Shown one piece after another: positions 2,758-62,405 of a stretch of DNA of 64,000 bases (positions within the stretch are counted from its first letter, which is position 1; each line of letters opens with the position of its first letter). Under the pieces are notes generated by a model that searched no databases, was not told where the DNA came from, and was given only the letters and a program-made list of their open reading frames with translations. Source of the stretch: Tautonia plasticadhaerens (GTDB taxonomy: Bacteria; Planctomycetota; Planctomycetia; Isosphaerales; Isosphaeraceae). The stretch is taken from contig NZ_CP036426.1 of the NCBI RefSeq assembly GCF_007752535.1, positions 496,001-560,000 on the forward strand, in the 5' to 3' direction. The position numbers and the translations under genes are program-made.

Positions 2758-3393
2758 TCAGTCGAAGGCCCCGGCGGCCTCGATCAGGGCGTCAGTCGTG
2801 TGGCGGTCCCGGTAGCCTTCGAGGAAGAGCTTGGCGCGGATCACGCCATCCTCGTCGAGGATGAACGTCCCGGGCCGGGGGATCCCCTCCAGCCGCCCCG
2901 TTCCCTCCTCATTGAGGACGTTGTACGCGACGATCGTCTCGCTCTCGGGGTCGGAGAGCAGCGGGAACGTGATCTCCGAACGGCCGGAGAACCGTTCGAG
3001 GATCGCCACGTCGTCATAGCTGATGCCGATCACCTGGATGCCGGCGTCTTCGATCTCTTTCAGGTCACCTTGCAGCTGGACCAGCTGCCTCTGGCAGAAC
3101 GGTCACCAGTCGGCCGATCGATAGAAGACCAGGGCGACCTTCTTCCCCTCGCCGAGGAACTCGTCGAGCGAACGCCGCTCGCCCGACTGATCCGAGAGCG
3201 TGAACCTCGGGGCCTGGCTGCCGACCGCCAGGCCGGTCTCCTCCCCCTCGACGCCGGCCGGGACCGGAGCCTCGATCGGGCCCGGGGACTCGGCCGCCGG
3301 GGATGCCTCCGCATCCCGATGCTGCCCGCAGGCGCCCCCCGTGGCCACCGCCAGGATCCCCGCCAGGCCGGCGGGCACGATCCGTCCGATCAT
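2758..3393 (-). CDS. Selenoprotein: peroxiredoxin-like (AhpC/TSA family) with UPFC active site
   Basis: The frame runs from ATG 3393 (ribosome site GAGGGGAGA) to the stop at 2758, with one in-frame TGA at 3103-3105, codon 97, giving 211 residues. The N-terminus is a signal sequence with a possible weak lipobox (GGAC at about 22). The redoxin domain starts at VGSQAPRFTLSDQSG. The active site reads FYRSADW-U97-P-F-C100-QRQL; family members normally have C at the U position (ADWCPFC). After the TGA the domain continues normally through VIGISYDD, FPLLSDPES and GIPRPGTFILDEDGVI. It probably reduces peroxides or thiols outside the cytoplasm. It is the first gene of a likely operon with the TlpA-like selenoprotein. 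A sequencing error would have to have hit the same position in both genes. Confidence 0.88.
3072..3105 (-). promoter_or_regulatory. Sec UGA codon and bacterial SECIS-like hairpin (peroxiredoxin-like gene)
   Basis: The TGA is at 3105-3103. It is followed by GCAGCT-GGTCC-AGCTGC (3088-3072), a perfect six-pair stem whose 5-nt loop (3082-3078) starts 21 nt after the TGA; the outer G and C of the loop could add a seventh pair. The loop core GGTC is the same as in the hairpin of the neighbouring gene, although the stem sequences differ, so the shared loop is not a trivial duplication. A lower helix between GGTGACC around the TGA and GGTGACC downstream is also possible with one mismatch. Confidence 0.78.
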
Positions 3394-3417
3394 TCGAATC
3401 TCCCCTCGGATAGGTGC

Positions 3418-60059: not shown

Positions 60060-62405
60060 ATGCCTGCGGCTCCCGGCGGCCTGGTCGGCCTGACGCTCTC
60101 GGGCGGTCGGTACGAGGTCCTCGGCCTGCTCGGCGAGGGGGGCATGGGCCAGGTCTATCGCGCCCGGGACGCGAACCTCCAGGCCGACGTGGTCATCAAG
60201 GTGCCGCACCGGGCGATGCAGGACGACCCGGAGTTCGTCCGGCGGTTCCGAGACGAGATCCGGGCGCTGGTCGCGCTGGTCCACCCGCACGTCGTCCGGA
60301 TCACCGACGTCGGCTCGCACGGCGACCTCACCTTCGCGGTGATGCAGTACCTCGCCGGCGGGAGCCTCGACGGGCGATGCCGGGGCGGGCCGGACGGCCG
60401 TCGGCTGCCGCAGCCGGCCGGCGGGGTCGCCTCCTGGATGGGGCCGGTCGCCGAGGCGATCGACCACGTCCACGCCCTGGGGTACATCCACCGAGACGTG
60501 AAGCCGGCGAACATCCTGTTCGACGCCCGGGGGTATCCCTACCTCGGCGACTTCGGGGTGATCAAGGCGGCCGAGTCCGTCTCCCCCGGGGGCGGGGCCG
60601 GGCTGACCGGCACCGGCATGGTGCTCGGGACGCCCCATTACATGGCCCCCGAGCTGATCATGGGGGAGCCGATCGACGGCCGGATCGACCAGTATGCCCT
60701 GGGGATCACCGTGTACGAGGCCCTCGCCGGCCGTCGGCCGTTCGAGGCCGAGGCGGCGACCGCCGTCCTCGTCCAGCAGACCACCCATCAGCCGCCTCCC
60801 CTCCACGGCGCCCGCCCGGACCTGCCCGCCTCGACCTGCGAGGCCGTCCACCGGGCGATGGCCAAGGACCCTTCGGATCGATTCCCGACCTGTTCCGAGT
60901 TCGCCCGGGTCGTCCGGGCTTCCCTGGGCCTCGTCCCCCCGGCCGACTCGGTCCGGCCGGCCCCGGCCGGTCGGGGGCCGCTGAAGGTCTCCTGCCCCTC
61001 GTGCGGCCGTCGCCTGGCCGCCCCGTCGGAGGCGATCGGCCGGAAGGTGCGTTGCCCCTCCTGCCGCCACTCCTACGTGCTCGGCGGGGGGGGCGACGGG
61101 CCGGCCGCCCACCCCGGTCCCCCCCGGGGCGACACGATCGAGATCAGCCCCGCCTCGGCCCGGTGGACCCGCCCGGAGGGTATCGCGGGCTCCTCGCCGG
61201 CGGCGGCCCCAACCGCCGGCTTCCCGGTCGGCGACCGGGACGGGGCCGGCGAGATCGACCTGGAGGTCCCCGCCCCCCCCGGGCCCCCGGGCCGTCCGGG
61301 AGGGCGGGCTCGGGTGCTCATCGGGGCGCTCGTCGCCTCGGCCTGCGTCGCCCTCGCCGCCGGGGCCCTCGTCCTGCGACCGGGGCCCGGCCTCGCCGAG
61401 GACGACCCGGGCGGCCGGGCCTCCGTCCTCCCCGGGGTCCCGGACCCGGTCCCGGATCCGAATCCGGTGCCCCCCCTCGCCCTTCTCCCGACCGTGGAGG
61501 CCCGGCCTATCCCGTCGGGCTCCCCGGCGCAGGAGCGGGCCGGGTCGGGACCGGAGCCGGGACCGGCCGGATCGGAACCGGAGCCCCTTCCGGATCCGGA
61601 GCCGTTCCCCCCTCCTCCACCGCCGGAGTTGGCCGAGCCCCCGGCCGGGGAACCGTCCCCGGAGCCCGTCGGGGCCCCGGACCCGGGGACCGAGCCGGGG
61701 CCTCCGCCGGCCCCCGGGGTCGTCCGGGACGTGCCGATCGGACGGCTCCTCGACGTCCCCGAGTCGTTCGACGGCCTCTCGGTCATCCCGAGCGGTTACT
61801 TCCAGATCGGCCCGACGGTCCGCCGCCGCCCCGACGGGGAGTATGCGACCTACCTGGTCGCCCAGCCCGGCGGCGAGATCTGTTCCCGGGGGGGAGGTCC
61901 CGAGGGCGGGCCGGGCCCCGACTTCGTGCTCGACCCCGGGCTGGCCGACGCGCTGGCCCGGGAGCTGGCCGGTTCGGGACGGACCCCCGCCGCGTGCATC
62001 CCCAGGTTCGAGGTCCGGGAGGCGGGACGGGGCCGGTGGGTGGCCTCGATCGTCCAGCTCACGGTCGCGAGTTTCGGCAGCTTCGAATCCCTCTATTACT
62101 TCGGCGACCTGAATAACACCAATTCGATCGCGCTGAGGGACTCGGTCGACGTGGTCCTGCTCGATCGTTCCCGACGCCTCCAGGGGTCCTCCCCCGCCTC
62201 GGAGTGGGAGGGGAGGATCGGCGAGGTCGCCTCGGGCCGGGCCAAGACCCGGATGCGGCAGCGGCTCCGCGACTACTGGGCCCAACTCAAGAAGATGCAG
62301 CTCGGCGCCGGGGCCCAGCAGGCCCTCCAGCATGGGCTCATCCAGGGGCAGAGGAACCAGCAGGGATACGACAACCTGATCCAGCAGATGTTTGGCGGCC
62401 GTTGA
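60060..62405 (+). CDS. Membrane-anchored Ser/Thr kinase with zinc ribbon and unknown extracytoplasmic domain
   Basis: The protein is 781 residues from ATG 60060 (GGCGGAG upstream). The kinase domain (about 15-290) has GEGGMGQVYRA, K47, HRDVKPANI (D146), DFG (164-166) and MAPEL, all intact. A zinc ribbon follows with C312, C315, C332 and C335 (SCPSCGRRLAAPSEAIGRKVRCPSC). One membrane helix (about 420-441) is followed by a proline-rich stalk (445-560) and a C-terminal domain (about 570-690, beginning VPIGRLLDVPESFDGLSVIPSGYFQIG) unlike any sensor that I know. It is divergent from the FHA genes over 160 nt, which suggests joint control. Confidence 0.94.
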   Translation: MPAAPGGLVGLTLSGGRYEVLGLLGEGGMGQVYRARDANLQADVVIKVPHRAMQDDPEFVRRFRDEIRALVALVHPHVVRITDVGSHGDLTFAVMQYLAGGSLDGRCRGGPDGRRLPQPAGGVASWMGPVAEAIDHVHALGYIHRDVKPANILFDARGYPYLGDFGVIKAAESVSPGGGAGLTGTGMVLGTPHYMAPELIMGEPIDGRIDQYALGITVYEALAGRRPFEAEAATAVLVQQTTHQPPPLHGARPDLPASTCEAVHRAMAKDPSDRFPTCSEFARVVRASLGLVPPADSVRPAPAGRGPLKVSCPSCGRRLAAPSEAIGRKVRCPSCRHSYVLGGGGDGPAAHPGPPRGDTIEISPASARWTRPEGIAGSSPAAAPTAGFPVGDRDGAGEIDLEVPAPPGPPGRPGGRARVLIGALVASACVALAAGALVLRPGPGLAEDDPGGRASVLPGVPDPVPDPNPVPPLALLPTVEARPIPSGSPAQERAGSGPEPGPAGSEPEPLPDPEPFPPPPPPELAEPPAGEPSPEPVGAPDPGTEPGPPPAPGVVRDVPIGRLLDVPESFDGLSVIPSGYFQIGPTVRRRPDGEYATYLVAQPGGEICSRGGGPEGGPGPDFVLDPGLADALARELAGSGRTPAACIPRFEVREAGRGRWVASIVQLTVASFGSFESLYYFGDLNNTNSIALRDSVDVVLLDRSRRLQGSSPASEWEGRIGEVASGRAKTRMRQRLRDYWAQLKKMQLGAGAQQALQHGLIQGQRNQQGYDNLIQQMFGGR

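Follow-up and report, generated by a model that had tools for sequence, protein, structure and literature searches.

A putative UPFC selenoprotein with a peroxiredoxin fold, and its TGA-containing neighbour, in the planctomycete Tautonia plasticadhaerens

Peroxiredoxin (Prx)-like thiol:disulfide oxidoreductases are an already known class of selenoproteins. As described, they belong to the AhpC/TSA family and carry selenocysteine (Sec, U) as the first residue of a UxxC motif, with Cys-containing homologues (PMC1794560, PMC2398784, PMC13188914). Eight members with PF00578 and UxxC are given in PMC1794560 and 225 "Prx-like 1" selenoproteins in the GOS survey of PMC2398784, and the class also appears in table 1 of PMC13188914. 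Neighbouring genes for redox-type selenoproteins are known from the SAO and Tso operons (PMC2398784, PMC13188914). For planctomycetes, PMC4807772 lists selenoproteins of two strains associated with algae and reports complete sets of Sec genes in Gemmata obscuriglobus and Isosphaera pallida. Tautonia plasticadhaerens ElP-T is described as aerobic in PMC7716859, the available text of which contains no word starting with selenoc- or selenopro-.

A minus-strand gene in a 64,000-nucleotide stretch of the T. plasticadhaerens genome (the window; contig NZ_CP036426.1) fits this class, and it is assigned to the Prx-like thiol:disulfide oxidoreductase selenoproteins by comparison with the description of published members (PF00578, UxxC) only. 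The product is almost certainly a thiol:disulfide oxidoreductase with a Prx fold, probably exported, in which Sec takes the first position of the active site (U97-P-F-C100). The basis for this reading is computational: conservation of an in-frame TGA, exchange of Sec and Cys, a complete Sec machinery, covariation in a downstream hairpin and a predicted fold. Unlike the published members as described, the gene lies beside a second TGA-containing gene, a hydrophobic N terminus is found in 21 of the 22 TGA forms (with starts picked by a script that itself favours hydrophobic starts), and 21 of the 22 genomes with a TGA form belong to one class. The adjoining pair of TGA genes is the least ordinary part of the finding. 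A pair of a Prx-like UPFC protein and a TlpA-type UAGC-TPR protein is not among the selenoprotein gene pairs considered here from PMC2398784 and PMC13188914. The planctomycete Prx-like branch was not found in the literature searched, and it may be among the supplementary tables of PMC4807772. With this locus the Prx-like selenoproteins gain a planctomycete branch, found in an isolate that is described as aerobic; the locus consists of two adjoining genes that ordinary gene calling would truncate.

Other redox families share parts of this design. The fold and Pfam family of the UPFC protein are common to Sec-peroxiredoxins (TxxU) and PrxU (NF040737), but its Sec opens the UxxC motif instead of occupying the peroxidatic site, and its score against NF040737 is 35.9 bits (cut-off 270). 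SelL has a UxxU motif. The SelL-related redox proteins (NF040769) are also Prx-like, and all 18 rows of alignment A3 match this model at 1e-5; the UPFC protein itself reaches 47.7 bits, below the cut-off of 120 that defines membership. The W-C/U-P-x-C motif aligns with that of the ResA/TlpA CxxC oxidoreductases (3c71), but the score against NF002854 is 54.5 bits (cut-off 170) and solved peroxiredoxins score higher. The UPFC protein matches no curated NCBIfam model at its cut-off.

The UPFC gene (2758-3393, minus strand) starts with an ATG at 3393-3391, which is preceded by the Shine-Dalgarno-like GAGGGGAG (3400-3407, minus strand; GAGG match). It reaches TGA at 3105-3103 as codon 97, continues for 114 codons and ends with a TGA stop at 2760-2758, giving 211 amino acids with Sec97. 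The original prediction had the coordinates exactly and left the strand unstated: translation of the plus strand over 2758-3393 is meaningless, and the protein that was described comes from the minus strand. There, the TGA falls in the context FYRSADW-U-PFCQRQL, at the first Cys of ADW(C)PFC as had been proposed. The expectation that an ordinary gene call would stop at residue 96 also holds, with a plain ORF call giving one piece of 96 amino acids (3393-3103) and a GTG ORF of 91 amino acids (3033-2758). With Cys in place of U, the protein has the conserved domain PF00578 (AhpC-TSA; residues 57-187, profile positions 1-123 of 124; E-value: 3e-33; 114.9 bits, cut-off 26); read through the TGA, the domain is complete, as claimed. 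Among the 38 AhpC-TSA matches in the genome, only the UPFC gene and its neighbour contain an in-frame TGA. The protein has a hydrophobic stretch at its N terminus by a simple hydropathy score; because of this stretch and the GAGG before the ATG, it is likely to be exported.

Homologues were sought in samples of the order (45 genomes; E-value 1e-20), the class (profile search of 397 genomes; 1e-25) and the phylum (392 genomes; 1e-30), scoring in the latter two being limited to the best 7 or 9 candidates per genome. Nine of the 45 order genomes, T. plasticadhaerens included, have a homologue, and all nine homologues contain exactly one TGA, at the same residue. The phylum sample gave T. plasticadhaerens and two further genomes, both with one TGA, and the class sample gave 28 matches, 21 with one TGA and 7 without. 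In total there are 22 distinct TGA homologues in 22 genomes (including G047 from the phylum sample), each with a single TGA at the same codon, so that the TGA noted in the window is present in 21 other genomes. Two of these homologues, both from draft assemblies, are irregular: the reading frame of L026 breaks down past residue 147, close to the end of a contig, and the N terminus of L022 is unusual. G040 and G041, two of the four genomes of the genus, have no UPFC gene at E-value 1e-20.

When U is placed at codon 97 and the protein is aligned with its AhpC/TSA relatives, Cys homologues align at this site. Of the seven class-sample matches without a stop, one is a close Cys form (L129, from G468, with 63% identity) and the other six are distant proteins with RGxWCP(Y/I)C. 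Overall, Cys stands at the Sec site in 15 relatives that were kept: eight RSADWCPFC forms from Opitutales and alphaproteobacteria, one close planctomycete form and the six distant RGxWCP(Y/I)C proteins. A contig scan with DNA patterns yielded 45 relatives, eight of which were kept as Cys rows (L027-L033, L035); the tree does not include the other 37, which are CxxC oxidoreductases, ordinary peroxiredoxins with TxxC, or weak and partial hits. None of the 45 is a TGA form, the patterns having been built with Cys such that TGA forms were reachable only via other patterns. On the tree of 37 rows (22 TGA, 15 Cys), the Sec/Cys state changes at least four times, and therefore neither the TGA nor the Cys forms make up one clade. 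In a plasmid collection, 44 records were matched, all with less than 60% identity; of the 10 that are listed, eight fall in genes annotated Bcp, redoxin or peroxiredoxin and two in unannotated places. One TGA form, L142 (951-1367, G685), is a distant GHW-U-PFC protein with an ambiguous start codon, on a long branch beside Cys relatives.

The proteins and tRNA expected of a Sec-inserting bacterium (SelA, SelB, SelD and tRNA-Sec with anticodon UCA) are all encoded in the T. plasticadhaerens genome (9,395,224 bases, six contigs). tRNA-Sec lies at C1:6016686-6016781 (anticodon TCA). The selA match (C1:2121692-2123047; 513 bits, cut-off 268) and the selB match (C1:2123100-2124998; 348.5 bits, cut-off 242) adjoin, 52 bp apart. 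selD lies far from them (L090, G000:C1:1193090-1194028; 351.8 bits, cut-off 125) and has an in-frame TGA of its own in the context CAG-U-AGK, which matches the UxxK form given for SelD in PMC13188914. A selA match over the cut-off is found in all 22 genomes with a TGA homologue (9 of 9 in the order, where 30 of 45 genomes have one overall, and 13 of 13 outside) and in 23 of the 42 genomes examined that lack such a homologue (21 of 36 from the order, 2 of 6 others). The Fisher p-value of 8.5e-5 for this association is a guide only, as the genomes are related and the six others were chosen for holding a Cys relative. Three more RF01852 matches (L002-L004, G000:C1) score just over the tRNA-Sec cut-off (47.5-50 bits) and are perhaps other long-arm tRNAs. 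An ARAGORN tRNA-Glu call within the window (61194-61289, minus strand), at first suspected to be tRNA-Sec, lies inside an ORF on the other strand that is kinase-like by motifs identified by eye, and is probably spurious.

Downstream of the UPFC TGA, the minus strand can form a bSECIS-type hairpin, GCAGCTG-GTC-CAGCTGC (3072-3088; bases 18-34 if the T of the TGA is base 1). Published limits for the bSECIS are a loop of 3-9 nt with G in its first two positions, a stem of 4-16 bp, a distance of 16-37 nt from the UGA and a minimum free energy of at most -7.5 (PMC13188914). The hairpin lies within all of them, with a 3-nt GTC loop (G first), a 7 bp stem, an apical loop 21 nt past the UGA and -11.2 kcal/mol for the stem stretch. 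When a shorter stretch around the stem is folded, the hairpin forms in all of the first 11 TGA rows. When about 50 nt past the TGA are folded alone, it is part of the lowest-energy structure in 9 of these 11, the exceptions being the window's own sequence and L026, which pair otherwise; among the later 11 rows, L131, L135, L139 and L140 also fold otherwise. The ribosome at the UGA covers the first bases after it, and longer alternative folds would therefore be hindered. No Rfam family reaches its gathering score within the window. RF00031, presumably the eukaryotic SECIS, has no match in the window nor in 14 controls, and so is uninformative here.

The pairing of this stem is conserved. Each of the 77 pair cells in the first 11 TGA rows is Watson-Crick, the seven pairs being kept in 11 of 11, and eight cells, at three pairs, are changed on both sides. 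The covariation score is 0.301, compared with a mean of 0.133 in shuffled alignments (none of 500 reaches the observed score) and a maximum of 0.125 in slid controls; two of five covariation measures say little (23 of 500 shuffles are as high for double-change pairs, and 494 of 500 for further pair types). Of the 22 TGA rows, 18 can form all seven pairs in the register of the window hairpin. In L135 and L138 a 6 bp stem closes a 5-nt loop, L142 makes another 7-bp stem that is shifted downstream by 3 nt (-7.1 kcal/mol, just short of the published -7.5), and L139 alone is without a 6-bp stem, having only 5-bp alternatives. A Watson-Crick stem of at least 6 bp with a G-bearing loop 20-24 nt past the codon is thus found in 21 of 22 TGA forms and in 1 of 15 Cys forms. 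For comparison, a stem of at least 6 bp with a loop at 20-24 nt follows 52 of 6482 in-frame codons in 11 window genes, or 395 of 6482 if the full published spacing is allowed. The hairpin offers a clear example of synonymous covariation linked to Sec. The one Cys form that has it is L129 (1504-1974, G468), in which a TGC codon is followed by a perfect GCAACTG-GTT-CAGTTGC stem and whose genome has selA over the cut-off. This hairpin is probably a fossil, as expected of a recent Sec-to-Cys change; hairpin remnants were reported earlier in FdhA and HesB-like proteins (PMC1794560). Because the hairpin tracks Sec and stays in one close Cys form, Sec-to-Cys reversion and bSECIS function are directly testable.

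The selenoprotein reading is strongly supported, the in-frame UGA standing where homologues have Cys, and has to be weighed against other accounts of the same letters. That the TGA ends a decaying gene, or is a sequencing error, would agree with the ordinary ORF call that splits the gene, but is next to inconceivable. The same TGA recurs across 22 genomes and the matches contain no additional stop, the exceptions to intact frames being L026 and L020, which runs into a remnant of the second gene. The downstream half, in which decay would have told against the original prediction, is under purifying selection in the closer pairs: past the TGA, dN/dS is 0.046/0.576 for L019/L021, 0.024/0.171 for L021/L022, 0.204/1.106 for L018/L019 and 0.211/0.610 for L018/L020. 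Upstream of the TGA, the last pair has dN 0.232 and dS 0.198 over just 50 codons; several other pairs are saturated, and downstream dN is high for L026, whose frame is lost. Chance or a sequencing error at the TGA is excluded, because 9 of 9 order homologues have it at the same site, and 22 do when the class and phylum samples are included. Extremely unlikely, too, is that TGA is reassigned genome-wide (for example to Trp or Cys) or read through without Sec. The TGA does follow a TGG and the frame stays open, but the UPFC gene and the second gene both end in TGA, no stop codon occurs in 36 of the 38 AhpC-TSA matches or in the matches to selA and selB, and the site is that of a redox Cys in relatives, in a genome with complete Sec machinery. 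The hairpin might also be a mere by-product of the QLVQL peptide and high G+C, with no SECIS role. CAGCTG is self-complementary, the hairpin is absent from the lowest-energy fold of the window's 50-nt stretch, and the single-gene codon-shuffle null gives only P 0.03-0.11; this null is weak because QLVQL in G+C-rich codons is nearly self-complementary. This account is nonetheless very unlikely: pairs 21-31 and 22-30 change type at least five times each on the tree while the peptide QLVQLQ stays in 18 of 22 TGA rows (so that most of these changes are compensatory as well as synonymous), the hairpin is missing from 14 of 15 Cys forms, and the distant L142 builds its own 7-bp stem in a shifted position. 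Conservation of the TGA, Cys homologues and downstream purifying selection thus all bear out the proposal that codon 97 is a Sec codon, and Sec is the predicted residue there.

The activity of such a protein can be considered from its predicted fold. The AlphaFold model has a mean pLDDT of 84.9, and most blocks of 10 residues from position 61 onwards exceed 90. The nearest solved folds are the AhpE, Bcp4 and BcpB peroxiredoxins (TM by target 0.86-0.91, ranks 1-9), with ResA lower in the ranking (0.78-0.83). In five profile alignments, U97 stands at the Ser/Thr of (S/T)xxC in four peroxiredoxins and at the Cys of WCPHC in ResA (3c71). C100 aligns with the peroxidatic Cys, which the 3hjp chain replaces by Ser. 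Pro174 takes the position of a catalytic Arg in the Bcp protein 2cx3; the AhpE chain 4xih, titled as an R116A mutant, has Ala at this place. Two marks of peroxiredoxins, a Thr/Ser three residues before the peroxidatic Cys and an Arg before the strand after the cis-Pro loop, are therefore replaced by U97 and Pro174. Because of these placements of U97, C100 and Pro174, the most likely activity is that of a UxxC thiol:disulfide oxidoreductase on a Prx scaffold. A true peroxiredoxin (a peroxidase with Sec as the peroxidatic residue) is unlikely. It would suit the best Pfam family, AhpC-TSA, and the best solved relatives by both sequence and fold, which are Bcp/AhpE peroxiredoxins; the residue placements tell against it, as do the direct match of the ResA motif and the 18-row alignment, in which Cys/Sec at 97 and Cys100 are invariant, likewise W96 and P172. 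Of the term "peroxiredoxin-like" used in the original prediction, the Prx fold with UxxC stands and membership among the true peroxiredoxins does not.

The proposed model for the UPFC thiol:disulfide oxidoreductase is as follows. SelB would bring Sec-tRNA(UCA) to the UGA, aided by the hairpin, the stem of which starts 14 nt past the UGA. After likely export of the protein, U97 would attack a disulfide (or peroxide) substrate and then form a selenenylsulfide with C100, which an envelope thiol donor would reduce. The adjacent gene appears to encode a second selenoprotein, probably co-transcribed and serving the same redox task.

This second TGA gene, which was not part of the original prediction, lies on the same strand (1311-2729, minus; ATG at 2729, stop at 1313-1311), 28 bp downstream of the UPFC gene stop. 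It encodes 472 amino acids comprising a TlpA/redoxin-type domain, which scores 49.2 bits against AhpC-TSA (cut-off 26), as well as TPR repeats and a C-terminal part in which Cys447 and Cys454 are conserved. The in-frame TGA (2535-2537, minus) is codon 65, putatively Sec65, in the context FASW-U-AGCR. At E-value 1e-20, homologues among the 45 order genomes are confined to the genus: G040 and G041 have full-length copies with one TGA each, such that all three full-length copies, the window's included, contain the TGA, and G042 matches residues 382-467 only. A bSECIS-type hairpin, CGTGCC-GGTCT-GGCACG, follows (2501-2517, minus; loop 23 nt past the UGA), and is identical in the three genomes (L074, L075 and L076), even though the proteins are 59-62% identical to the window's. 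Its loop is similar to the one in E. coli fdhF. Identification of the C-terminal part as DsbD-alpha was considered and not confirmed, the sole Pfam match of this part being to another family (E-value: 0.058). The model is of low confidence (pLDDT 56.9), none of the 50 listed fold matches is informative, and the DsbD-alpha hint comes from a sequence pattern seen by eye and from the G047 fusion only.

It is possible, if rather doubtful, that the two genes form a dedicated, selenium-dependent envelope redox relay in which the UPFC protein exchanges electrons with the UAGC-TPR protein, whose C-terminal part would be DsbD-alpha-like. Were this so, gene fusions in other genomes would reflect the same partnership: in G047 between the TGA Prx domain and DsbD_N, and in G042 between the TGA Prx gene and the second gene's C-terminal part. 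In G047 (L072, 1504-2475), a TGA-containing Prx domain is followed by DsbD_N in one frame (34.3 bits, cut-off 25). In G042 (L020, 1645-2358; L080), the TGA-containing Prx gene runs in frame into a C-terminal remnant of the second gene. Both fusions hint at a shared envelope redox role. The simplest reading of the G042 arrangement is an in-frame deletion; by eye, the fused gene sits between genes that resemble the two that flank the pair in the window.
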